The notes under the pieces: generated by a model | Told to the model about the DNA's origin: nothing | The model's database searches: none | The model's input: the letters and a program-made list of their open reading frames with translations, nothing else | In this document: in pieces, positions 7,807-64,000 of the stretch | How the letters are laid out: every line of letters starts with the position of its first letter | Numbering within the stretch: the first letter of the stretch is position 1 | Translations under genes and position numbers: made by a program | Source: Saccharomycodes ludwigii | Taxonomy: Eukaryota; Ascomycota; Saccharomycetes; Saccharomycodales; Saccharomycodaceae | Length of the DNA: 64,000 nucleotides | Direction: 5' to 3' | Assembly (NCBI RefSeq): GCF_020623625.1 | Contig: NC_060201.1 | Location: 434,001-498,000, forward strand

Positions 7807-8412
7807 TTTTAAAGTATTTGATATATATATCTTTTTCTCCTTTTTATTTTTTTCTGTTTATAATTAGTTTTAATTTTTTTTTTTTTTTTTTTTTTAATTT
7901 TTTAATTTTTTAATTTTTGTTTTTTTGTTGAAAATGTTATTCTATATATATATATATATTTAAAGAAATGGAACTTGGAATTACTGTCACATGGTATTAA
8001 ATTAGTTAGATTATTTTGTGGCCATCTGTTATATTGAATTAAGTATAAAATTAATTATTATTATTTGAACCTGAAAAAAAAAAAATAGCTGGCACAGACT
8101 TTTTTAATTTTATTTTACCTATTATGGAAACGCCTATATTTGTGAATCCGAAACACGAAAAAGGACAATTAAAAATATTACCGAGAAGCAAACTTTTATT
8201 TTTTTTTTTCGGACTTTCCCCCTCACTGTCTTATTTGTATTTGTTTTTTTTGTATATGTTTTTTCTTTTTGTCATCAACTAAGATTATACTTTCCTATTA
8301 ATTGATAGTATGGCTGGAAATTGAGATAGCTTATTTCTAAGTTTTCAAGTTCAATCTAATAAAGGATAAAGGATTTAAAAAATTGCATAGGAAATTTTAA
8401 TCTGTATAGTAA
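7807..8412. other. Divergent promoter region upstream of HIR1
   Basis: This 606-bp spacer separates the divergent 454-aa gene and HIR1. It contains T tracts near 7877-7895, an (AT)n run at about 7943-7959, a perfect CDEI/Cbf1-type octamer at 7986-7993, and a CCGAAA motif at 8148-8153 (see the separate entry). I see no RNA gene. Confidence 0.6.
7986..7993 (+). promoter_or_regulatory. CDEI/Cbf1-type octamer GTCACATG
   Basis: GTCACATG fits the RTCACRTG consensus bound by Cbf1 at yeast centromeres and at some promoters. A CCGAAA core follows 155 bp downstream (8148-8153) in a context (TTTGTGAATCCGAAA) that shares 12 of 15 positions with the Kluyveromyces lactis CDEIII core as I recall it. The DNA between them is only about 77% AT, below normal for CDEII. 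A promoter Cbf1 site for HIR1 or the divergent gene is the simpler reading. Confidence 0.35.
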
Positions 8413-11094
8413 ATGAAAATTTTAAAAGTGCCTTGGCTAGGCCATATAGACGAACATAGAAAATATGAAGTTTATACAGTAGACATATCTAAAGACAATG
8501 AGCATGTAGCAACAGGTGGTTTGGACGGATTAGTTAAAATATGGTCCTTATCTTCAATAATTAACGTACAGCATCAAGAAAAACAAACTCCAATTAACAA
8601 ACAAAAACCATTGGCTAGCATGAGTAGGCATACAGGAGCAGTTACAGTTGTAAAGTTTTCGCCTGACGGAAAATATCTAGCTACTGGGTCAGACGATAGA
8701 ATTATATTGATATGGGAGAAAGAGTCAACAATCTCCCCATCAGTGTCAACAGTAGAAGCAACAATTAATGTGAATAGTGCGTTTGGGTCAGATAGGAGTG
8801 ATGAACATTGGGTAGTAAGAAAAAGATTAGCCGCCCATGAAAATGATATACAAGACCTTTGCTGGTCTCCTGATTCTAGTTTGTTGGTTTCGGTTGGTCT
8901 AGACAGAAGCATCCTTGTATGGAACGGGATAACGTTTGAAAAAATTAAAAAATTTGATGTACATAATTCGCATGTAAAAGGTGTAATTTTTGATCCTGCA
9001 AATAAATATTTTGCTACGGCATCCGATGATAGAACAGTGAAAATTTTCAGGTATCACAAGAATGATGGAGATTTAAGCTTTTCAATTGAATCAGTTGTTA
9101 CAGAGCCCTTTAAGGGGTCTCCGTTGACCACATATTTTAGAAGATTATCTTGGTCTCCAGATGGGCAACATATAGCAGTGCCCAATGCAACAAATGGGCC
9201 CGTTTCGTCAGTAGCAATTATTGATAGAGGGAGCTGGGACTCTGATATTAGCTTGATTGGCCATGTGGAGCCAACTGAAGTAGCCAGGTTTAATCCCAGA
9301 TTATACAAAAAGGAAAAGAAAAGTACAGTTGGGAACAAAGAAATTGATACTACCAAGGGAAACAAAAACGATCAAGGAACAGCGGAAAAAGAAGAAGAAG
9401 TTGATTCTATCGTGTGTACTGCGGGTCGAGATAAGTCACTGGTGTTATGGACTACTAATAGGGAAAGACCAATATTTATATCATATGACATTGCACTTAA
9501 GTCTATAACTGATATGTGTTGGAATCCTACGGGTAACATTTTGTTAGTGGCATCATTAGATGGTTCCATAACCCCTGTAATATTCCATGAAAACGAATTG
9601 GGCACTCCAATACCTTTGGAGGAAAATATCAAATACTTGCACAGATATGGGGCAGGTAAAGAATCTAATTTATGTGCAGAAAGTGTTGATCAATTAAAGT
9701 TGGAGGAATTAGCATCGAAAGAACAGAAAAAACTGATTAAATCTTTTGCTGCAAGAAAAAAAAAAACAGAACCAATTAACATAAACAAGGATATACAGAG
9801 GACAACGGAAGAACCCAAAATAAACATTTTAATACCGAAAAGGAAAAAAGATTCGATGAAGAACATTCCATCGGCCGTTCCCACTGTGAAAATTACTAAG
9901 AGTGGTAAAAAAAGAGTGACCCCGATTTTAATATCTACTACCACCAATACGTCTGTTAGCGCATTCAAATCATCTAAAAGTGATAGCACTCGTGAAGGTA
10001 ATAAGAACAATGTTATAAAAACTAAGAAAAAAGCAAATCTCCTATTTGGCTCACAATTATCTAGATCATCATATCCGGTGCCAAGGCTGGGTGTACAAAC
10101 ATTGATTATGGGTATAAAAGACCGGTTATTTGATTCAAGCGTTAATAATATTGAAACCAAAGAGAACGTCAATGGATTGACTAGTAATAGGCATTCTTCA
10201 AATTGGAAAATTCCCAGCAGTGAAAATACAAAGAATGATATTGCATATTCGTCTCCGCTTCAAAAACCTCGCCAATTGGTACTTAAAAAGGCAAAGATAG
10301 ATAATATCAGTGGTAGTGGCGCTATTAACATACAATATAGTTCATATCATCGTATTTTGCCCGATGACGATATTGTAATAGTTCAATATGGTGAAAACAT
10401 AGAAGCATTGCATATCTTGGAGATCAAAAATGGGGTGGAAAGATCTATTCAATTTGATAAAGAGGCACTATTGGAAAACCCAACAAAATTATGTGGGTAT
10501 CATGAAGGTAAATTAACAATGACTGCTTATCTACCGGAAGTAGTAAACTGTGCCATTGGTTCTACCAAATGTCAATGCTGGATAATTGCCACCACCGAAG
10601 GCTCTATTTATATTTTTTCAGAAAATGGAAAATTAAAAATGCCAAAGTTATCTATCGGGTACAAGATTATCAAGTTAGAAATACATAATGAGTGTTATTT
10701 GGTAGCTCTTAGCGAAAATGGATTGTTTTTTTGTTGGGATCTGTTGAATTGCAGATCCATTTTTCAGAAAATATCTATAGCACCATTATTGGTGGATGAA
10801 GGTAGTTTACAATCTGGTGGCAAAGTTAGAGTTGATAGAAAGTTAGTCAAATTTCATTTAGATATTAAAGCCATGGAATTGGAAGTGATCATAAAAAGAA
10901 ATGACAATGAGGAAGAGTTCAAAAACAAAAAAAAAAAAAAGACTTTGATTATAACATTGAAATTCATAATGATAAAATGTTATGTTCGTATGTTTGGAAT
11001 AATGCTATGGGATGTTGGTTTAGGTCCAAAAACACGAAGGCGGCCGATGCCGGCGAGCGAACGGAGTCATCATAATATTTGCATATATAATTAA
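8413..11094 (+). CDS. HIR1: HIR histone chaperone subunit Hir1, with a probable late frameshift
   Basis: Hir1 is the WD40 subunit of the HIR complex, which deposits H3-H4 independently of replication and represses histone genes in the nucleus. The first ~400 residues carry about seven WD repeats, starting MKILKVPWLGHIDEHRKYEVY. The HIRA B-domain core, which binds Asf1, is visible near residue 496 (KSGKKRVTPILIS). A Hira/TLE-like C-terminal domain follows. The frame given encodes 893 aa, but after a run of 14 A (10927-10940) the tail looks foreign and basic. The phase-shifted frame from 10941 gives SYVWNNAMGCWFRS, which resembles the end of Hira domains, and stops at 11073-11075. A missing A in the assembly or a real polymorphism is likely. 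HIR1 faces SLA1 here as in S. cerevisiae, with LEU1 between them. Confidence 0.92.
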   Translation: MKILKVPWLGHIDEHRKYEVYTVDISKDNEHVATGGLDGLVKIWSLSSIINVQHQEKQTPINKQKPLASMSRHTGAVTVVKFSPDGKYLATGSDDRIILIWEKESTISPSVSTVEATINVNSAFGSDRSDEHWVVRKRLAAHENDIQDLCWSPDSSLLVSVGLDRSILVWNGITFEKIKKFDVHNSHVKGVIFDPANKYFATASDDRTVKIFRYHKNDGDLSFSIESVVTEPFKGSPLTTYFRRLSWSPDGQHIAVPNATNGPVSSVAIIDRGSWDSDISLIGHVEPTEVARFNPRLYKKEKKSTVGNKEIDTTKGNKNDQGTAEKEEEVDSIVCTAGRDKSLVLWTTNRERPIFISYDIALKSITDMCWNPTGNILLVASLDGSITPVIFHENELGTPIPLEENIKYLHRYGAGKESNLCAESVDQLKLEELASKEQKKLIKSFAARKKKTEPININKDIQRTTEEPKINILIPKRKKDSMKNIPSAVPTVKITKSGKKRVTPILISTTTNTSVSAFKSSKSDSTREGNKNNVIKTKKKANLLFGSQLSRSSYPVPRLGVQTLIMGIKDRLFDSSVNNIETKENVNGLTSNRHSSNWKIPSSENTKNDIAYSSPLQKPRQLVLKKAKIDNISGSGAINIQYSSYHRILPDDDIVIVQYGENIEALHILEIKNGVERSIQFDKEALLENPTKLCGYHEGKLTMTAYLPEVVNCAIGSTKCQCWIIATTEGSIYIFSENGKLKMPKLSIGYKIIKLEIHNECYLVALSENGLFFCWDLLNCRSIFQKISIAPLLVDEGSLQSGGKVRVDRKLVKFHLDIKAMELEVIIKRNDNEEEFKNKKKKKTLIITLKFIMIKCYVRMFGIMLWDVGLGPKTRRRPMPASERSHHNICIYN
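11064..11070 (-). promoter_or_regulatory. Possible Gcn4 site upstream of LEU1
   Basis: The heptamer reads ATGACTC on the minus strand, a half-perfect Gcn4 element, about 350 bp before the LEU1 start. It overlaps the end of HIR1, so it may be chance. Confidence 0.25.
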
Positions 11095-52769: not shown

Positions 52770-54647
52770 ATGAGTCATTCAATCTCTAAAGGTGAATTAT
52801 TTTCTATTTTTACAAAAGAAGAGAAGTTTAAAAATCCAACTGGTGGCGTTTTCAAAATTCTTAGTGTCAAGAAAAACGATAGAGAGAGGAAGAGTTGTTT
52901 ATTTGTAATATATGATGGCGAGTATAATACAAAATGTTTATTTAAAGATGCTGCTTTTGAAAAAGCCTTTGAGAGCAATTTGGAACCAGGAAATGTTTTC
53001 CGTGTTCTTGTTGCCAGTACCGCTGTTTTACCACAAAAGAAAAAGTGTGTTTTAGTTGTAGAAGATGTAGAAATTTTAGAAAAAAACCGTCTACCTCCAA
53101 ACCAACAAACTGGTATATTTTTAGATTCATATTTGTTTGAACATCCCGAGTTGAGTGCGGTTCCTGAATTCAGAGGCGCTGGTTTTAATGCTCAACCAAA
53201 TAAAGGGGCTCCTCAACCACCCCAAATAAACCCTACAAAACCATTACAACAACACTCTGTTGTTTCGAATAATTACCAACAACAACAACATAATAATAAT
53301 ATTAATAACCATAACCATAATAACGGATCTACTTCAGATTCTCAAAAAAGACCTATCTTTGCCATTGAACAATTAAGTCCATACCAAAATTTATGGACTA
53401 TTAAGGCTAGAGTATCGTATAAATCCGATATTAGAACCTGGAGAAACCAAAGAGGCGAAGGTAAATTATTTAATGTCAACTTCTTGGACGAAACTGGCGA
53501 AATTAGGGCCACTGCATTCAATGATAACGCTGAAAAATACTTTGAGATACTACAAGAGGGCAAAGTCTATTATGTTTCTAAAGCCAGAGTGCAACCATCC
53601 AAACCACAGTTTTCTCATTTAAAACACCCCTACGAATTACAATTAGACAGAGATAGTGTTGTTGAGGAATGCATGGATGATCAAGGTAATGTTCCTCAGC
53701 TACATTTCGATTTTGTAAAGCTAAGTTCTGTTGAAAACACGGAACCAAACTCTGTTGTGGATGTTATGGGCATCATTCAAGAGATCACCCCTGTTTTTCA
53801 AATCAACTCAAAAGCCGGTAAAACCTATGATCGCCGTGATATTACCATTGTGGATGACTCTGGTTACTCAATTTCTCTTGGTTTATGGAATAATTTAGCT
53901 GTTGATTTTAATTTGCCAGAAGGATCGGTTATCGTTGCAAAGGGGGTTAGGGTTAGTGACTTCAACGGCAAAAGCTTGTCAATGACCCCAAACGGCAACA
54001 TCTATTCAAACCCAGAAACCCCTGAAGCGTTTGCTCTAAAAGGTTGGTACGATTCTCAAGGTAAGAGTTCTACATTCCATTCTTTGAAACAAGAGTTTAG
54101 CAGAAGGGATAACATTGCTGAGCGTAAAACAATTAGGGCTGCCGAAGAGGAAAACCTGGGTGCAAGTGAGCGTGGCGATTACTTTAACATTAAAGCAGCT
54201 ATTACATATGTAAGAACCGATAATTTCTGTTACCCAGGGTGTTCCAGTCCTAATTGCGCCAAAAAAGTTATTGAGACGTCTGATGGTTCTTGGAGATGTG
54301 AAAAATGTGATGCTACTTACCCAACTCCAAACTATAGATACACCTTAAGCATATCTGTCCTAGATGAAACTGGTCAAATGTGGTTGACTCTATTTAATGA
54401 ACAAGCTGAAACTTTATTAGGCGTTAGTGCTAATAAATTGATGGAAATTAAAGAAAATTCAGATACCGAATTTAACGATATAATTCAAAAAGTTCAAATG
54501 TGTGAGTTTGATTTCAGAATAAGAGCTCGTCAAGATACATACAATGACGTTCAAAAGATTAGATACAGTGCCGCAACCATTAGTAGATTGAATTTCAAAG
54601 CAGAAGCTGATTATTTGGCTAAAGAACTTTCCAAAGTGAATATTTGA
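52770..54647 (+). CDS. RFA1: Replication protein A large subunit (RPA70)
   Basis: Rfa1 is the large subunit of RPA, the single-strand DNA binding complex needed for replication, repair and recombination. The protein has 625 aa (621 in yeast). It carries an N-terminal OB fold (about 1-125) for protein contacts, a Gln/Asn/His-rich linker, DNA-binding OB folds A and B (about 190-420; start PIFAIEQLSPYQNLWTIKARV), and DBD-C (about 460-625) with a four-Cys zinc ribbon at about 487-514 (CYPGCSSPNC ... CEKCD). Two MCB boxes upstream indicate G1/S control. It is convergent with NUP60. SEN34, its neighbour in S. cerevisiae, lies 9 kb upstream. Confidence 0.97.
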   Translation: MSHSISKGELFSIFTKEEKFKNPTGGVFKILSVKKNDRERKSCLFVIYDGEYNTKCLFKDAAFEKAFESNLEPGNVFRVLVASTAVLPQKKKCVLVVEDVEILEKNRLPPNQQTGIFLDSYLFEHPELSAVPEFRGAGFNAQPNKGAPQPPQINPTKPLQQHSVVSNNYQQQQHNNNINNHNHNNGSTSDSQKRPIFAIEQLSPYQNLWTIKARVSYKSDIRTWRNQRGEGKLFNVNFLDETGEIRATAFNDNAEKYFEILQEGKVYYVSKARVQPSKPQFSHLKHPYELQLDRDSVVEECMDDQGNVPQLHFDFVKLSSVENTEPNSVVDVMGIIQEITPVFQINSKAGKTYDRRDITIVDDSGYSISLGLWNNLAVDFNLPEGSVIVAKGVRVSDFNGKSLSMTPNGNIYSNPETPEAFALKGWYDSQGKSSTFHSLKQEFSRRDNIAERKTIRAAEEENLGASERGDYFNIKAAITYVRTDNFCYPGCSSPNCAKKVIETSDGSWRCEKCDATYPTPNYRYTLSISVLDETGQMWLTLFNEQAETLLGVSANKLMEIKENSDTEFNDIIQKVQMCEFDFRIRARQDTYNDVQKIRYSAATISRLNFKAEADYLAKELSKVNI

Positions 54648-54887: not shown

Positions 54888-56171
54888 TTAGAATACAAAT
54901 GACCGTTTAAACAATTCTACTTTTGCTTCATCAACACTAGAATCAAGTGCACAACCAGGGAACAGTGATGGCGTTGGAAAATCGTAATTGTAACAAGTTT
55001 CAGTCTCTTCCTTCTTTTCTTTTGTAATGATGGCAGATCCATTCTGTACCTTTGAATTTCCATCGAGTGTACCGGCTTTAATATTCTCATTTGGGCCCTT
55101 TAACACATTGTTTGCTACAGTGTTCTTCGGAAGAGATTGCGTAGTACTATTAAATGAAAAACTAAATTTGGATTTGTTTGGAGCCAACGCAGTCTCGGTT
55201 TTGTCTTTAATAAAAGATTGCTCATCTTTTTCAAGTTTTGAGTTCTCTTCAAGTCTTGAAGCTTTTTCGCCCGGAGAAGAAGACCTCATATGTTTGTTCT
55301 TATACAACAGATTCTTATTTTTCTGTTCCTCGATACAGCCGCTTGCATCTTTAGTGGCAACCACCTTAGGTAGAAAAGATTTGTAGGGATTAGACATGGA
55401 ATCATCTCTTTGAAGCTTTAAAGACGGTTCTTCGCTTTCAGAAAGCAGGTTGATTAACGCTGTCGCTGTGTTACTTAGTTTTTTCCCTTTAACCTCAGTT
55501 TTTTCCTGTTCCTCACTTGTGTTCTCTGTTATTTTTGGTTGATAAATACCATTTAATTTATATGGAGAAGCAACTACCGAAAAATCAAATATTCTCTTCT
55601 TGTATGGTAAAGACTGCACATGCTTGAGATTAGGATCGTAATTCGGGGTAAACTCTGGCACTTCAGAGGATCTGCGGGTTGATGATAGTACTGCACTTTT
55701 ATTATCACAAAGCATTGCTGAATGGTTGTTAATTGCCTCTTCCCCTTTTTTGACCAAAACTTTTCTGGATTTGTTGATCAGTGATAAAACACCTTCAAGC
55801 TCAATCTCAGATAGAGGTTCCTTCCCCTTTTCTTGGAAAAATTTGGCTAATTTTGCATTAGAAGTGTCTGGATCTTCATGTATAGAAGCATAACTATCAT
55901 TTTCGTGACCATGGTCCATATTATTAACAACAGTATCATTCTTGATCGAATTAACTACTTCGATAGGTTGTAAAGGTGTAGCATAATCTCCAGTGTAAAA
56001 ACCGCCAGGAACCAACAGATTATTATTATTATAGTCCAGTTTTTTCACTTTTTCCTTTTTATTATCCGCTACTACTTTGTTCCGTTGAATTTCAAAAAGA
56101 GACTTCAGACTTGCAAAAATAGATTTCTTTTTTGTTTGTGGTTTCACTACCTTCCCGATGAAACCAGGCAT
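54888..56171 (-). CDS. NUP60: Nuclear-basket nucleoporin Nup60
   Basis: Nup60 anchors the nuclear basket proteins Mlp1/2 and Nup2 to the pore. The protein has 427 aa (539 in yeast). The N-terminal part has the basic amphipathic helix KKKSIFASLKSLFEIQ that bends and binds the inner nuclear membrane. The central block SNAKLAKFFQEKGKEPLSEIE, then LEGVLSLINKSRK, is nearly identical to yeast. An FxF motif (KFSFSFN) for Nup2 binding lies near residue 350, and the C-terminus ends KVELFKRSFVF, like yeast KVEAFKSLYTF. NUP60 borders CEN1 in S. cerevisiae. Confidence 0.93.
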   Translation of the reverse strand: MPGFIGKVVKPQTKKKSIFASLKSLFEIQRNKVVADNKKEKVKKLDYNNNNLLVPGGFYTGDYATPLQPIEVVNSIKNDTVVNNMDHGHENDSYASIHEDPDTSNAKLAKFFQEKGKEPLSEIELEGVLSLINKSRKVLVKKGEEAINNHSAMLCDNKSAVLSSTRRSSEVPEFTPNYDPNLKHVQSLPYKKRIFDFSVVASPYKLNGIYQPKITENTSEEQEKTEVKGKKLSNTATALINLLSESEEPSLKLQRDDSMSNPYKSFLPKVVATKDASGCIEEQKNKNLLYKNKHMRSSSPGEKASRLEENSKLEKDEQSFIKDKTETALAPNKSKFSFSFNSTTQSLPKNTVANNVLKGPNENIKAGTLDGNSKVQNGSAIITKEKKEETETCYNYDFPTPSLFPGCALDSSVDEAKVELFKRSFVF

Positions 56172-56441: not shown

Positions 56442-59400
56442 TTAGACAAACATTTGAAGTTCTGCAAAGCCGGGGTTCATCATAATAGCATCTAAATTTC
56501 CAACAGCTATAACTTCATTCGATTCAAGCCATTCTACAATATTCTCTATTTCTTTTCTAGATAGCACCTTCGAACACCTTTCAGATAAACCTCCTACATC
56601 AATGCCTGGATAAAACAATACATTCCAGAGAACTATACCCAACATATTTTTCCAAATATTATCCCTTATATTGCCTTTTTTATCAATCCAAAGTTTTGAA
56701 AACGGAGGCCCAGAAGGTATAGGAACTTTCCAAGTTTGGTTACCAAAATGTTTTAAATGCTTTTTTTGAAAAAGTAATAACGGCGAAATTAGTGAACCGG
56801 TTTCAAATCTTCTGGAAGCATAGTAAAATTTCTCTTCTTTTTGGTTTACAGGTATATTGATAACATTAAGATCCAAAGCTTCTAACATTCCCAAATAAAT
56901 ATACATTGCAAAACCACTTGGTTCTTCAGAGAGTATCCACCCCTTGTTGTTAGACAGAATTTCATTCAACTTCCTGGCAAACGATGCTGATCCTTCAAAA
57001 AAATCCAATCTTCCCTTGCTAACCATAAAATCAAAGAATACATCCGTTAGCTGTAATTTAGATGCTCCAATAAATGACAATTGCTTCTCTTTGGCCATAC
57101 TAATCATTGCCTTATCAATGTCATCCTTTTGATATGCCTTCAACAAAGCAACAGTATTCGTGTCTATTTCATCATCAGAAATTAATACAGACTTGATTAT
57201 GGATTTTATCTCATCAGTGCCTGGTGTGTCTTCTTGTTTCAGCCTGGAAGCTACCGTATACGTTTTCCTCAATATGTGCTTTTGTCGTTGTACCATCGAA
57301 GATTTCGTTATTGCATTATCATTAAATTCAAAAGTATATTTATCTACTAGGGTATATGTTTCAAAATTCTTCTCGTAAACCTTGAACAATTTCAATGGTT
57401 TATTTTTTTGGGTGCTTTCATGAGTTTTCCATATATAGAGTAACTTGGCCAAATTAAACTTTTCTGCGTCTTCTAAAGTACCTAAACCCTGCTGAACTGC
57501 ATTAACCATGATCCTTTTCCACTTGGCGATTTCTGACTTTATATAGTCATGTCCAAGCTTTGTCCTTTTTTTAATATATTGCTTTTTCAAAATTGCAAGT
57601 GAATTTTTGGGAAATATTTTCTGTATTTCAGTCCATAAAACCTGTCCTTTCAAACTCTTGGAAATCATAGTACATTTCATCAAACAGTCAATACCGTCTT
57701 TAGAGTTCAGGTTCCGAACAGATGACGCGGTGTATGGCTCTTTTTTGGTCTTCCTTGACACTTTGTTCGAAATTATTTGTTCCGCAGTCGATTCGTCTTC
57801 TTTTTCTCCATGTATATCTGCAATAGATTTAGTTGGTTTGCCAGCAACAACTTTCCTAGATCTTGATCTGGACTTTTTATTGCCCATTCTCTTTAATTTT
57901 GCTTCATTATGTCTAACTTGATATTCTTCAACTCTCTTGACTGATTTCGGAACCCTGTTGAACTTATCCTTTTCTCGCTTGTCATAAAAATATAGCTCCG
58001 AGCTTTTAATAACTTCTAAGACCTTTGTTTTCTTTTTAGATTCTTTGTAAGAGCCTAAATAATTGTCGATATCCGCATCACTAATTTCAGCTCCAAAATA
58101 TACACTTTTACCATTAAAACCATTTTCCCGAACACGCAACTTCCCACATTTCCGGAGATCTTCAATGTCTCTATAAAATGTTTTCCTGTCCAAAACTGTT
58201 TTCAAGCCAACGGTCCTAGCAACATCCTCCAAAATACTATCCCTGTAAACTAAAACACCTTTGTTTTTCATCAACAATTGCATAATTGCTCTTTGACGCT
58301 GTAAAGATTTCAAAGTTGTCCCTGAAAATCCATTAACCTCAATTGCTCCTGGAGTTCTAGGATGAACTGTGGAAGGTAATGGCCTTTCCGGTTTAATTTT
58401 CGCTCTTTTCTCTTTTAGACGAGATGCTTTTGGACCTTCAACCATAATATGTGTTCTTTTCTTCACTTCCTTTTTCACATTCGTATTTAAATCGTTATAC
58501 CAAATATAATGTTCTTCCCCACTAGGTAACGTAGTGGCACCTAGAATGTCGGGGAAAACAGATAAGTTTTTCTCTTCCAAATCCTTTAATGTTAGTTGCT
58601 GTTCAATTATGGGCTCAAATAAAGGCCCTCGTTTCTTTTTTTTCTGAGAGGTCAATGCCAAATAACTATCCTCCGTAAAAAAACGGTGGTGTTTTCTTTT
58701 CCCCTCAAAATCATAAACTTTTATCAACCTGAATCCATTATATGGTGTGTTGTCCAAAACACTGGGTGCATCAGCGAAAAATTCAATCGATCTAGTGAAA
58801 GGTCTTTTGTAATCATTCCCACAAATATTATCTATAGTCTGCATAGAAGTAGCACCTTCTTTACCAAACTGTGAAATATAAGAATTTGTTATTGTTTGTA
58901 ACGGATGAAATCTATTTACCAAAAATTGTTTTTTTTTACCATTTATTTCTTGTGCATCTTCTATAATCAAAGAAGGTGCTTGTAAAATGTTTTGATTAGC
59001 TGCTAGATTTGCAGCACGTTCCTCTTCGTCTTCACCCGCCCCGTTAGTATCTTCATCTTCATCACGCATTTTGTCCTCATCATCATCATCATCATCATCA
59101 TTTTCTTCTTCCTCATTCTCGCTTTCATCAAAATTGGTTAGGGCCTGCTCTTCTGATTTTAAATCCCTTATATATTGAACACAAACAATTTTCACAGTAT
59201 TGTTTATTGGCGATAAAACAAACACCTTTTTTAAGTATCCATTATCCACTAACCAAGTAATACCTGATTGGAACCTCCTCTTAACTTTTCTTTCCTTGTC
59301 AAATTTCAATTCTCTTCTCAAATCTAGAACTTGTCTTAGTTGATTTTTGGAGTTTTTAACGGTTTCTACAATAATTGGTAAGAATCGCTTCCAGTCAATA

Positions 59401-59972
59401 TAGTCCCCACTTCCAACAATTTTTGTCTTTTTCTCACGAACAGTGTTATTAAACTTGTAATATACCAAATGTTTAGTGACATGACCTTTAAAAATGCAAG
59501 GTTCAGAAATAATCAAGGATCCTAACTTATTTAATCTGCCCGTAAAACTTCTAGAATCCTGCTTAGTGTTACGTTGAAGGGTTAAAGTGTTAATGCCTTT
59601 TTCCTTATTCTTAGCAATTTCTAAAAGTAACTCAAAAGCCATTCCACCAATGTTTGAATCTTTGGATGTATAATTGGTCAACAATAACCATAATTTATCA
59701 TCGCTTAGTTTAATTTCGTAGTTATGCAATTCCTCTTGGTTTAAATTAAAATAAGTAAGTTCATCTTTGTGATCTAGTTGACTGCCATTAAATAGGAATT
59801 GGATGTCATCATCCGCCAATAGGTTTCTCAACACAAAATCCTTAATACTAATATCACTAATGTCAATGAATTGTTTTGTTATATTCCAAAAAGTTTCCAA
59901 ATTTACTTTCCCCTTATGATAAGCGATCTCTTGACTAATCTGAGACAGCAACTCATCCGGCGCTAAACACAT
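56442..59972 (-). CDS. TFC3: TFIIIC 138-kDa subunit (tau138)
   Basis: Tfc3 is the largest subunit of TFIIIC and binds the B box of tRNA genes to recruit TFIIIB and RNA polymerase III. The protein has 1176 aa (1160 in yeast). Matches: LSDDKLWLLLTNYTSKDSNIGGMAFELLL, KGINTLTLQ, RRELKFDKERKVKRRFQS, GFSGTTLKSLQRQRAIMQLL (the high-mobility-group-like and winged-helix regions), and QKHILRKTYTV. An acidic Asp/Glu run (about 290-320) and a basic stretch with KSRSRSRK are present. TFC3 borders CEN1 in S. cerevisiae, with its 5' end facing the centromere. Confidence 0.94.
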   Translation of the reverse strand: MCLAPDELLSQISQEIAYHKGKVNLETFWNITKQFIDISDISIKDFVLRNLLADDDIQFLFNGSQLDHKDELTYFNLNQEELHNYEIKLSDDKLWLLLTNYTSKDSNIGGMAFELLLEIAKNKEKGINTLTLQRNTKQDSRSFTGRLNKLGSLIISEPCIFKGHVTKHLVYYKFNNTVREKKTKIVGSGDYIDWKRFLPIIVETVKNSKNQLRQVLDLRRELKFDKERKVKRRFQSGITWLVDNGYLKKVFVLSPINNTVKIVCVQYIRDLKSEEQALTNFDESENEEEENDDDDDDDEDKMRDEDEDTNGAGEDEEERAANLAANQNILQAPSLIIEDAQEINGKKKQFLVNRFHPLQTITNSYISQFGKEGATSMQTIDNICGNDYKRPFTRSIEFFADAPSVLDNTPYNGFRLIKVYDFEGKRKHHRFFTEDSYLALTSQKKKKRGPLFEPIIEQQLTLKDLEEKNLSVFPDILGATTLPSGEEHYIWYNDLNTNVKKEVKKRTHIMVEGPKASRLKEKRAKIKPERPLPSTVHPRTPGAIEVNGFSGTTLKSLQRQRAIMQLLMKNKGVLVYRDSILEDVARTVGLKTVLDRKTFYRDIEDLRKCGKLRVRENGFNGKSVYFGAEISDADIDNYLGSYKESKKKTKVLEVIKSSELYFYDKREKDKFNRVPKSVKRVEEYQVRHNEAKLKRMGNKKSRSRSRKVVAGKPTKSIADIHGEKEDESTAEQIISNKVSRKTKKEPYTASSVRNLNSKDGIDCLMKCTMISKSLKGQVLWTEIQKIFPKNSLAILKKQYIKKRTKLGHDYIKSEIAKWKRIMVNAVQQGLGTLEDAEKFNLAKLLYIWKTHESTQKNKPLKLFKVYEKNFETYTLVDKYTFEFNDNAITKSSMVQRQKHILRKTYTVASRLKQEDTPGTDEIKSIIKSVLISDDEIDTNTVALLKAYQKDDIDKAMISMAKEKQLSFIGASKLQLTDVFFDFMVSKGRLDFFEGSASFARKLNEILSNNKGWILSEEPSGFAMYIYLGMLEALDLNVINIPVNQKEEKFYYASRRFETGSLISPLLLFQKKHLKHFGNQTWKVPIPSGPPFSKLWIDKKGNIRDNIWKNMLGIVLWNVLFYPGIDVGGLSERCSKVLSRKEIENIVEWLESNEVIAVGNLDAIMMNPGFAELQMFV

Positions 59973-60513: not shown

Positions 60514-61392
60514 ATGGTTGATACAGACTCAGATACAGAATTGTATGTTACAAATGTAGTCAACACAGTTACTAGGGTCGATTGCTTTATATTTGTTTTA
60601 TAGTTACTAACATCTAACATCCTATTATTGGTTTATTACTATATATCTTGTTTGTATTATTTTCAATTTTATTATTATAGAACACTTTCAGCACATGCAT
60701 TAGCGGCTTTACAAGAATTCAAGCAAGAAGAAAAGCAGCGTCAAGAAGAGTTCCAAAGTTTATATACAGCTGCTGATGAAAAATTCGAAAAACAAAACTT
60801 GAAAGGAATGGAGTTGTTTAAAGAAGATTGGCAGTTGTCCCAATTTTGGTACAGCGATGAAACTGCCGACTTATTGGCAGATGCGTTACTAGAAGGTGCA
60901 GACGAAGAAACTGTGGTTGCGATTGTTAGTGCACCATCTGTTTTCGCTTCAATTAAAAAGAAAGATCCAGCTACTTTGCCCACAAAGAAGATATATCTTT
61001 TCGAATACGATAAGCGGTTTGAAGTATTGGCAGGAAAAGACTACTTCTTTTACTATGACTATTTTAAACCACTAGATTTTAATGATAAGCTGAAAGGAAA
61101 AGTGCATAGATTGTTGATTGATCCTCCATTTTTAACGGATGATTGTCAAACAAAATCATCCATCACTGCCAAGGCATTATTGGTCTCGGATAAGGCACAA
61201 AAAACGAAAACAGGTGCTTTGAAATATCGCTTGGTGTCTTGTACGGGAGAAAGGATGAAAAATGTAATATCCAGGGCTTATCCTGATACACATATCACCA
61301 CATTCCATCCAGAGCATGCCAATGGATTATCCAATGAGTTTAGATGCTATGCTTCGTTTGAATGGGCCAAATGGAAATTCGAATGCGATTAA
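60514..61392 (+). CDS. EFM5: Protein lysine methyltransferase Efm5 (spliced)
   Basis: Efm5 (formerly Aml1) methylates Lys79 of translation factor eEF1A. The gene has two exons: 60514-60542 and 60681-61392, giving 246 aa (yeast about 248). The spliced N-terminus reads MVDTDSDTELTLSAHALAAL. The family's Asn/Asp-Pro-Pro-Phe motif is present as LIDPPFLTDD, and aromatic-rich YDKRFEVLAGKDYFFYYDY forms the cofactor-binding core. The intron carries GTATGT, TACTAAC and TATAG signals, and EFM5 also has an intron in S. cerevisiae. There it borders CEN7, with its 3' end facing the centromere; here its 3' end faces the gene-free, LTR-rich right end. Confidence 0.92.
60543..60680 (+). other. Spliceosomal intron of EFM5 (138 nt)
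   Basis: The 5' site GTATGT is at 60543, the branch point TACTAAC at 60605-60611, and the 3' AG at 60679-60680. Removing it joins GAA TT|A ACA in frame with exon 2. The branch-point-to-acceptor distance of about 70 nt is long for yeast but acceptable. Confidence 0.93.
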
Positions 61393-61420
61393 AACATTAC
61401 TTTTATTCGCTTTGTTTATC

Positions 61421-61451
<31 letters not shown>

Positions 61452-61861
61452 GTAGCGGTGCCTTTTTTTCAGTCTATAACTTTGCTATGCTTCTAATATC
61501 CTCCTTTTTATAATTACATATTATATAATAACAGAAGTATGTAAAATTGCTATAAAAGATATATTTTACTGACTGAATGGTTGATCTAGTCACTCAACAG
61601 GCATGGTGATATTATGAAATATAACTTACTTTCTTAAATATGTTATATCAACAATTACGTAATATACACGTCCATAAAAAATATTATATATATATATATA
61701 TATATATATGTACATATATAAACGAAAAAACAAAATATTCAGCGACATATTCTCTCCCATAAAATCGTAGCACATAATTCGATGATATTTCTTTCTAATC
61801 TTTTCAGTTTTTTTATATGATGCCGCCTATTAATTAAAGAAATACTGAAGGGATTTTTTTT

Positions 61862-61961
61862 AAAAAGTTTATGAAACTTAGATTGGACAAACCTGTTATT
61901 CGATATATTACATTATGCAAATAGTTCAATTGCTCGCATAGATCGGCTTATCTCTTCAACA
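61862..61961 (-). mobile_element. Decayed solo-LTR fragment (minus)
   Basis: On the minus strand this begins with a TGTTGA-type end at 61961 and follows the 5' part of the LTR family seen at 63789. It is broken and old. Confidence 0.45.
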
Positions 61962-61974
61962 AATATAGATATGA

Positions 61975-62140
61975 AGCAAAAAACTTATCTACTCGATGAA
62001 TTGAATTATTCGTTATTATGTCATATACCTGTTACTATAAACCTACATCCTGGTGCCTGTAGCTTACAAACAAGTAGTATTATATACGGTAAAGATAAGA
62101 TTGAAAATAAGCAAGCTTATAACGTATACTAATTCAATAG
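61975..62140 (+). mobile_element. Decayed solo-LTR fragment (plus)
   Basis: The stretch with ATTATTCGTTATTATG, then CTGTAGC, follows the same order as the LTR copy at 63789, in forward orientation. It is old and partial. Confidence 0.4.
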
Positions 62141-62190
62141 GAAAAAAAAAAAAAAAACACAAAACACCTGTACCTTTATTTTTTCCAACT

Positions 62191-62430
62191 ATCAAATATT
62201 AATTTTTTAAAAAAAATTAAAAATAAATATAATTATTAAAAACACAAATTTATTGTTCGCATAATATTAGTATTTAATAATTATAAAAGTACAATATCAC
62301 AATTAAGATTTATAATAATAATACAAATTTAAATTATATATTTAAATTAAAAACCGTAAATTATACTTATTTACTATTATTTTAATAATAAGTTAATAAA
62401 ATATTATATTTTATTAAATATAAATAAAAA
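62191..62430. other. 240-bp block of about 92% AT
   Basis: Counting by eye gives about 20 G or C in 240 bases. The block is not a simple repeat. It lies within the LTR cluster, between two relics. CDEII-like composition is noted, but no canonical CDEI or CDEIII flanks it. Confidence 0.6.
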
Positions 62431-62539
62431 ATACTTTGCGAACCCAAAAATTAGTTTTATAATAGATATTTCTATATATAGAAAGTACGAATCTTTAAAA
62501 AGGTACGGGTGCATAAAATGTTTTTTTTTGGGTAATGTA

Positions 62540-62679
62540 TGTTGAGCGTATAGCTGATCTAACCGATCAATAGAATGATTCATATTATATAAGGAAAGAT
62601 AATATCTAGAAGCAGCCACGTATATGATGTACGAACAGATAAAAAATAAAGACACACCCGTACATTTATTTTCTCAACA
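62540..62679 (+). mobile_element. Solo LTR relic, TGTTGAG...CTCAACA ends
   Basis: Both inverted ends are present (7 bp each). The flanking 5-mers agree at four of five positions, as expected for an aged 5-bp target-site duplication. The first 49 bp match 42 of 49 positions of the copy at 63789. The element is shorter than that copy, so it is reduced. LTR-retrotransposon family (Ty5- or Ty3-like ends; not resolved). Confidence 0.72.
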
Positions 62680-62699
62680 TTGTATACCGGTATGATTAT

Positions 62700-62859
62700 A
62701 AATCCTATATTGACATATATATAACATGACACTGTTTTCGTTATATTAATGGTTTTTACATTTAAGCTGAAGTGACAAAGGCAATATATTCATATTAACA
62801 GATACATTACATAATATGAACAATTCTATGTAATAGTAAGACCAGCTTTTTGCTCAACA
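62700..62859 (-). mobile_element. Decayed solo-LTR fragment (minus)
   Basis: The minus-strand 5' end TGTTGAGC is at 62859. The sequence reading left follows the family through the CATAATATGA region and beyond, losing similarity near 62700. Broken and old. Confidence 0.6.
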
Positions 62860-62884
62860 AATATATATACAATTTTTTTATTTT

Positions 62885-63077
62885 TTTGCACATCATGCAC
62901 TTAATTATTTTAGTTTTTACATTCACTTATATGATCTCAATGAACTTAAACTAAGTATAAATCATAAAGATAAGCTCTGTGGAGAAGGTATAAGGACTAG
63001 GGTGTAGATTCATAGCAATAGGTATATTAAGTAATATGAATAATTCAATGAAAGGATAAAATCAGATTTTTGTTGAA
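62885..63077 (-). mobile_element. Decayed solo-LTR fragment (minus)
   Basis: It shares with the family the order TAAGCTC, then ATTCATA, GGTATATTA and AATATGAATAATT when read on the plus strand, that is, the element is in minus orientation. Ends are degraded. Old. Confidence 0.52.
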
Positions 63078-63788
63078 CTATTTGTTTACGCATGATATAC
63101 TGAAGCAAGTGATATATTAATATCGAAAAGTTTATTAAAAAATAAGCATAACTTTATTGATTGAATAATTTTGATATTCGTTAAAAAGAAAGATTAAAAA
63201 AAAAAAAAAAAAATAAAATAAAATAAAAAAAAAAAGTTTTTTAAATATCTCTCTAGAACAATCAAATAATGTATAATTCTGACATAAGTGAAAAAATAAT
63301 GACATAATTATAGCATAAAAGATAAATTTTTTTTATATGAAAGGATAATTGAATCCTGGGGAAGCAGATGAATCAGATCTACTTGACAGGTTCTATATGA
63401 CTTTGATCATTATTAATAAGAATTTTTAAATAAATGTTTCATTCGATTTATTGTGACACAGCTTAAATATTTGCTGTAGTTCCGGAAACTATAACCTTAT
63501 TAAGAAATTGCTTAATATAGAAAATGAAAAGAATTACGTACAATATGGAAAATACAAAAAATTTCACCTCCTCCTCCCTCCCTATAAAAGGTGATAATAT
63601 AAGCTTTATATGACCGAACTAAAAAGCAACTTTATATATACATGTAAAAGAAACATACCAAGTATGTTTGAATAATAAATTTACATGCTTATTTTCTCTT
63701 ATTTTCTCTTATTTAGCGGTAACATATTGTGTAGTTGCAATTTTTTACAGCTCTTTTATTTCCTTACATAATAAAAAATAATGATTTA

Positions 63789-64000
63789 TGTTGAGCTAAT
63801 AGCTGATCTAACTGTTCTATAAAATTATTCATATTATGCAATATACCCATTAATATGAATACACACTTTAATATCTGTAGCGTAAGCAAAGAGACTTTTT
63901 ATAGAGCTTACGTATAATTTAAGTAATGTTGTGTTATACAAAGAAAGATACTGTCTATAAGAAAACAAGCACATGATATACACAGGTAAATAAACAATAA
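63789..64000 (+). mobile_element. Solo LTR or LTR of a larger element, running off the window
   Basis: It starts TGTTGAGC and extends at least 212 bp to the window edge. It is the longest copy of the family here and seems the best preserved. Whether an internal retrotransposon region follows cannot be seen. Confidence 0.68.

Follow-up and report, generated by a model that had tools for sequence, protein, structure and literature searches.

One published idea traces the tiny genetic centromeres of baker's yeast to captured long terminal repeats (LTRs) of retrotransposons. Here, we describe a candidate centromere in a 64,000-nucleotide stretch (the window; positions 434001–498000 of contig C2) of the outgroup yeast Saccharomycodes ludwigii, where a sharp AT-rich core lies beside a young Ty5-type retrotransposon family, with no detectable sequence likeness between them. 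With the two side by side, whether LTRs made the centromere or were drawn to it becomes testable in one organism. The genome has 12,500,424 bp in 8 contigs, C1 to C8, and strain NBRC 1722 is described with 12.5 Mb and seven chromosomes (PMC8567612). For this species, a report of putative point centromeres dates from 2021, and the supplement of PMC8567612 has a figure of a centromere motif.

In the known point centromeres, CBF3 and Scm3 bind centromere DNA element (CDE) III and recruit Cse4 to CDEII (PMC12711049), and the spacer differs in length between species, from about 50 bp to nearly 200 bp (PMC12925627). The S. ludwigii core is like the Saccharomycetaceae point centromere in that it occurs once per chromosome at ancestral positions, is short with an AT-rich middle and a CGAA-type edge element, and is accompanied by CBF3 genes in the genome. 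It differs in having no CDEI and in its edge, which reads TGCGAA instead of TCCGAA and is mirrored at both ends. The spacer has a near-constant length of 175–187 bp, as in CDEII, which is about 80 bp long in S. cerevisiae. Judged from its sequence, the core looks like a point-type centromere of a mirrored variety, in which two of the conventional sequence tests, for CDEI and for the exact CDEIII heart, come out negative.

Haase et al. reportedly named the 21-bp motif of the sequence-defined, 'proto-point' centromeres of Hanseniaspora uvarum CAM. This yeast, also of Saccharomycodales, shares with S. ludwigii a CGCA-containing motif of about 21 bp and perhaps the ancestral locations. Its motif holds two AACGCA copies in an inverted repeat 5 nt apart (PMC12711049), whereas S. 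ludwigii has single TTCGCA and TGCGAA hexamers that face away from each other at 175–187 bp. The best CAM match near the S. ludwigii cores has 2–4 mismatches in 12 fixed positions, for one polarity of the motif as given in the text. In the published H. uvarum search, each sequence could contribute no more than one motif, and the H. menglaensis centromeres are described as having no common motif (PMC12711049). Naumovozyma has unconventional point centromeres that are likewise sequence-defined with altered elements; their motifs and positions are reported to differ from the conventional ones (PMC12925627), and the likeness to S. ludwigii is by description only.

Clusters of Ty5-type elements and LTRs at centromeres, one per chromosome, are found also in Cyberlindnera sargentensis and Wickerhamomyces, but the S. 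ludwigii cluster contains a separate core without detectable LTR. Three Ty5 copies are open with identical LTRs in S. ludwigii, whereas all those in C. sargentensis are apparent pseudogenes (PMC12711049). The closest in logic is W. anomalus with its Ty5 elements beside a 21-bp motif (PMC12711049). No description of mirrored arms was found in the literature searched, while Haase et al. and the supplementary figure of PMC8567612, outside that scope, could hold one.

In the window, the core occupies 62,241–62,457 (C2:496,241–496,457) and is very probably the centromere of C2, with a sequence-defined point type and a mirrored design. The left arm, a 21-bp half-site on the minus strand (62241–62261), ends in TTCGCA on the plus strand, so its outward reading starts with TGCGAA. 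A CDEII-like spacer of 175 bp follows (62262–62436; 92.0% AT, with A or T runs of up to 6), and then the right arm on the plus strand (62437–62457, TGCGAACCCAAAAATTAGTTT), as delimited by the arm comparison across seven chromosomes. The two hexamers, TTCGCA at 62256–62261 and TGCGAA at 62437–62442, are thus inverted around the AT block.

This block (62186–62471) is the sole one of six stretches of at least 90% AT in the window (160-bp windows) that has no long homopolymer, its longest run being 8 versus 14–36 in the others. The first-pass annotation of this DNA had already pointed to a block of about 92% AT and to the lack of a canonical CDEI, and both observations stand, RTCACRTG occurring only once in the 64 kb, at 7986. 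It missed the inverted hexamers and supposed that the centromere could lie just beyond the window, while the most likely place is inside, at the AT block. There, it is not the LTR cluster that looks like the centromere but a short core defined by its sequence.

One such core of arm, spacer and arm lies in a centromere-like interval on each of C1 to C7. From hexamer to hexamer, the cores are C1:2194420–2194618, C2:496256–496442, C3:640455–640647, C4:820944–821135, C5:703655–703849, C6:601273–601470 and C7:404608–404799, and their spacers measure 175–187 bp with 90.0–93.4% AT. When the 14 arms are aligned outward, each defined as 21 bp from 0 to +20, TGCGA and the TT at +19/+20 are present in all, A at +5 in 13, A at +9, +10 and +11 in 11, 12 and 13, respectively, and G at +18 in 10, so the consensus is roughly TGCGAAcacAAAnnnnGTGTT. 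Additionally, position +31 from the T of TGCGAA, eleven bases past the last T of the 21-bp arm, is A in 14/14 arms, so the bound site may be longer than 21 bp.

The sequence TTTCCGAA, which we take to be the heart of CDEIII, is not found exactly near any core, its best matches having 1 mismatch on C1–C4 and 2 on C5–C7. On each of C1–C4, TTTGCGAA, which differs from TTTCCGAA by a single base, is found at just one of the two arms; on C2 it is at 62435, at the right arm. Around the seven cores, no exact CDEI (RTCACRTG) occurs within 150 bp, the best matches having 1–2 mismatches. Scored as inverted repeats over their whole length, the cores were reached by 6 of 200 shuffles for C4 and by 80 to 193 of 200 for the remaining ones, so the mirror symmetry is limited to the arms.

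Among 512 five-mers with at least three G/C, only TCGCA pairs in inverted orientation with a 150–215 bp gap in all seven intervals, once in each; the runner-up TTCGC, overlapping it, does so in six and the next five-mer in four. With 300 shuffles per interval, a pair of any AT content arose in 0, 1, 1, 5, 2, 1 and 3 (C1 to C7), and a pair with at least 88% AT in none. Stretches of at least 90% AT number 14 in 263.6 kb, seven being the cores with no run longer than 8 and seven being others, each with a run of at least 14.

Genome-wide, the pattern TTCGCA-N168..198-TGCGA gave 20 rows at 14 distinct places, the genome-search counts here and below being lower bounds. Seven of these places are the cores, one each on C1–C7 inside the seven centromere intervals of together 39.5 kb. 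The AT fraction of the first 74 spacer bases is 0.865–0.946 at the cores versus 0.541–0.743 at the seven other places. Shifted spacings found 10 distinct places when shorter and 9 when longer, none in the centromere intervals.

Several points weigh against taking these cores as the centromeres. Because the seven cores served to define the search pattern, it recovers them by construction. A reversed-pattern control yielded 22 rows versus the 20 of the arm pattern, so the arm-pair total is not enriched genome-wide. The arms were first spotted by eye in AT-rich windows, before the unbiased five-mer test. The right hexamer of C1 is TGCGAC, the sole departure from TGCGAA, and the spacers do not align between chromosomes, only 1 of 21 pairs beating all 60 shuffles. 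The neighbouring genes at C5, C6 and C7 are looser than those at the other cores. The case for the cores rests on their location, their one-per-chromosome occurrence and their AT content.

As to location, flanking genes were taken from open reading frames (ORFs) of at least 120 aa, and smaller genes may be missed. The C2 core lies in a 9.4-kb interval with no host gene found, between an EFM5-type gene and a 3-beta-hydroxysteroid dehydrogenase (3-beta-HSD, ERG26-like) gene at C2:504782–505837, the next gene found beyond the LTR cluster. We take S. cerevisiae CEN7 to lie between ERG26 and EFM5, so the C2 interval would be the ancestral CEN7 interval. This gene order lends support to the earlier proposal of an ancestral pericentromere with CEN7-type neighbours. 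On C1, RRP6 and PHO80 stand directly on either side of the core in an interval of only 2.8 kb. The C5 core adjoins a VPS1-type dynamin gene, with what is presumably a MET14-like gene about 10 kb away on the other side. At C6, the adjacent genes received no name from the searches, and a second dynamin gene, presumably DNM1, is 9 kb to the right. The C7 core adjoins an RRM gene, which we take to be SGN1, and has on the opposite side one unnamed gene followed by a BTB/ankyrin gene, presumably YIL001W.

The C3 core adjoins a neutral trehalase gene, and on its opposite side are a 125-aa ORF and then a histone gene. A small ORF beside the C3 core (C3:642100–642477) presumably resembles ECM15, so S. 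ludwigii may keep the Saccharomycetales arrangement. In Hanseniaspora, ECM15 is near a different centromere, CEN2 (PMC12711049). The C4 core adjoins DOM34 and is separated from MRPL32 by one gene on the opposite side; DOM34–MRPL32 is the ancestral CEN1 interval (PMC12711049). While C4 falls in that interval, the ancestral placement of the other six cores relies on gene families and neighbour relations and is probable.

Two other sites on C1 were considered and rejected. One is next to HAT1 (C1:1,313 kb), presumably a CEN16 neighbour, where the 4 kb to the right of the gene gave no LTR match and the arm-pair search no place; this site would mark the eighth ancestral centromere. The eighth is described as no longer a centromere in this order (PMC12711049). 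The other is at a full-length Ty5 copy (C1:2,234–2,239 kb), which has no arm pair and whose flanking genes are not known centromere neighbours; the RRP6–PHO80 interval 40 kb off has a core and older LTR segments.

The core of C2 is surrounded by LTR relics of the Ty5 type. To its left are one in plus element sense at 61858–61961 (67% identity, E 1e-6) and one in minus sense at 61975–62066 (75%), with a weaker match on to 62206. To its right, beginning 97 bp past the TGCGAA hexamer, an LTR in minus sense has both ends (TGTTGAG...CTCAACA) and an internal deletion (62540–62679; two segments, 96% and 86%). The LTR comparison further gave three relics in plus sense, at 62693–62859 (71%), 62916–63078 (67%) and 63113–63185 (68%), and one in minus sense at 63789–64000 (78%) that continues 22 bases beyond the window to C2:498022. 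A full-length element, C2:498022–503299, starts where this last relic ends.

The 1598-aa frame of the element matches Ty5 Gag (PF17241, 1e-9), rve at 516–620 and RVT_2 at 1128–1352, which is a copia-order Pol with integrase before reverse transcriptase. The frame is open at C1, C2 and C6. Ty5 elements have a 5-bp target duplication and an LTR of about 250 bp. The LTRs of the three full-length copies are 243–244 bp long, and their pairs are identical (244/244, 243/243 and 244/244) with 5-bp target duplications of GAAAA, TTATT and CAATA, so the copies are young. The C1 copy (C1:2234307–2239586, GAAAA duplication, identical LTRs) sits between two genes 40 kb from the C1 core; the other two open copies found are both inside centromere intervals. 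Directly after its LTR is GGTTATGAGCCCTG, a candidate primer site. A primer site complementary to the tRNA-iMet anticodon stem is a criterion for Ty5 (PMC12711049).

The Ty5-type family is concentrated near the cores. The protein search gave 29 rows, 10 of them at 42–100% identity and all within 50 kb of a core (C1, C2, C4, C6 and C7). The remaining 19 at 25–36% are other copia-type elements at 11 loci, with one (C5:725 kb) within 50 kb of a core. LTRs occur on C3 and C5 as well, although the protein matches listed include no coding Ty5-type copy there. The LTR search found 27 matches, 22 within 10 kb and 26 within 50 kb of a core, where fragments of one LTR may count apart. The lone far match (C3:1808497–1808714, 69%) lies some 40 kb short of where the 1,848,403-bp C3 contig ends. 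The search is incomplete, because two weak C1 segments were missed and weak relics on the chromosome arms might likewise escape. C8, short with about 26 kb by subtraction, gave no match in any of the genome searches.

In the seven intervals together, 40 LTR segments were found at E≤1e-3 (shuffle mean 0.13) and 32 at E≤1e-5, the latter threshold passed by none in each of 30 shuffles; eight of the 32 start inside the window. The LTR cluster noted on first pass is therefore real, and one shared LTR-bearing locus was found on each of the seven chromosomes, as had been suggested for a check. An equal LTR density on the chromosome arms, which was named as evidence to the contrary, is not seen for the Ty5-type LTR in the distribution of the matches found.

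The LTRs come close to the cores and stay out of them. None of the 32 segments enters a hexamer-to-hexamer span, and the nearest LTR is 103, 97, 44, 49, 89, 43 and 47 bp from the hexamer (C1 to C7), or 15 bp less when measured from where the 21-bp arm ends. A slightly different run gave a weak C3 segment (640351–640449, 67%) that overlaps the left arm in its outer half. When the 32 segments were placed at random, all seven nearest distances were within 103 bp in 0 of 20,000 trials, with the threshold taken from the data, LTR fragments counted apart and mutual overlaps allowed.

A working of the core can be proposed from the known kinetochore. Genes for the CBF3 subunits Ndc10 (family match, 1.6e-48) and Cep3 (4.9e-92) are present, as is a Scm3 family gene. 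A CBF3-type complex would bind one or both TGCGAA-type arms, each as a CDEIII-like site, and with Scm3 would load a single Cse4 nucleosome on the spacer, which is long enough for one. A centromere-homing Ty5-family element would insert in the first free DNA, about 40–100 bp outside the arm hexamers, its integration steered to the edge of the kinetochore assembly, so each centromere would gather LTRs as passengers and not as the centromere itself. The near placement on all seven chromosomes favours this steering without proving it; selection against insertions inside the core would leave an equally empty core without steering.

In its fullest form, the centromere would be functionally symmetric, with the same CBF3-type complex on CDEIII-type arms at both sides of one Cse4 nucleosome. 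Such a mirror-image point centromere is possibly ancestral to the asymmetric CDEI–CDEII–CDEIII by replacement of one arm, and Ty5 would read the edge of its footprint as an insertion mark. We hold this as a tentative proposal, on balance not the expected outcome. Should both arms bind the kinetochore, there is more than one way to build a point centromere, and the classic one-sided design is one of them.

Alternatively, CBF3 would have its CDEIII-type site in a single arm, and a different protein, acting as CDEI/Cbf1 does, would bind the opposite arm, which would make the function asymmetric. The known point centromeres are asymmetric, TTTGCGAA is on just one arm of C1–C4, and the deviant C1 hexamer belongs to a right arm. 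However, the left and right arms are alike in pattern in 14/14, with no consistent side difference by eye, and we regard a one-arm site as rather doubtful.

It seems unlikely that the core arose as an LTR captured from an older Ty5-type element. LTRs are close to the core on 7/7 chromosomes, and co-option of this kind is a published hypothesis for the common ancestor (Haase et al. as cited in PMC12711049). Against it, none of the seven cores aligns with the present LTR, represented by one copy, better than shuffles (33 to 80 of 100 score equal or higher), and the span between the hexamers is free of LTR segments, although the traces of an ancient capture could have decayed too far to be detected. 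This lack of resemblance agrees with the view in PMC12711049 that Ty5 elements are centromere-associated and not centromere-making.

Less probable still is a regional epigenetic centromere that spreads over the whole LTR cluster, where genes are absent and the AT core would be just one feature. In Cyberlindnera and other yeasts, Ty5/LTR clusters do lie at the centromeres (PMC12711049), and the C2 interval offers 9.4 kb where no host gene was found, but there is one core per chromosome with the spacer length kept at 175–187 bp, CBF3 subunits are encoded, and the C1 interval is only 2.8 kb. It is very improbable that the core serves as a replication origin or as a hot spot for insertions, with the centromere elsewhere in the interval or the chromosome, since origins, while typically AT-rich, are presumably numerous and the cores occur one per chromosome in centromere-like gene intervals.

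Left of the candidate point centromere, four genes are neighbours in one row: an RFA1-like gene (52770–54647, plus strand), NUP60 (54888–56171, minus), TFC3 (56442–59972, minus; the best solved match is the tau 138 kDa subunit, E 8e-199) and the EFM5-type N6-methyltransferase gene bordering the centromere (60514–61392, plus; PF10237 over 60808–61392). The first-pass annotation had placed TFC3, NUP60 and EFM5 together, with the 5′ ends of the former two and the 3′ end of EFM5 facing right, and had the genes stop right of EFM5. The order and orientation hold, NUP60 being named by position only with no Pfam match, and no ORF of at least 150 aa is listed in the window after 61392. ARAGORN found no tRNA gene in window positions 1–64000 with bacterial settings, by which intron-bearing tRNAs could escape.

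The EFM5-type gene likely has exon 1 at 60514–60542, an intron at 60543–60680 (GTATGT...TAG) and exon 2 at 60681–61392, with exon 1 and the intron read by eye. Far to the left, a frame at 8413–11094, which we take to be HIR1-like, has an odd lysine-rich tail that looks like a frameshift or an assembly slip at a poly-A run.

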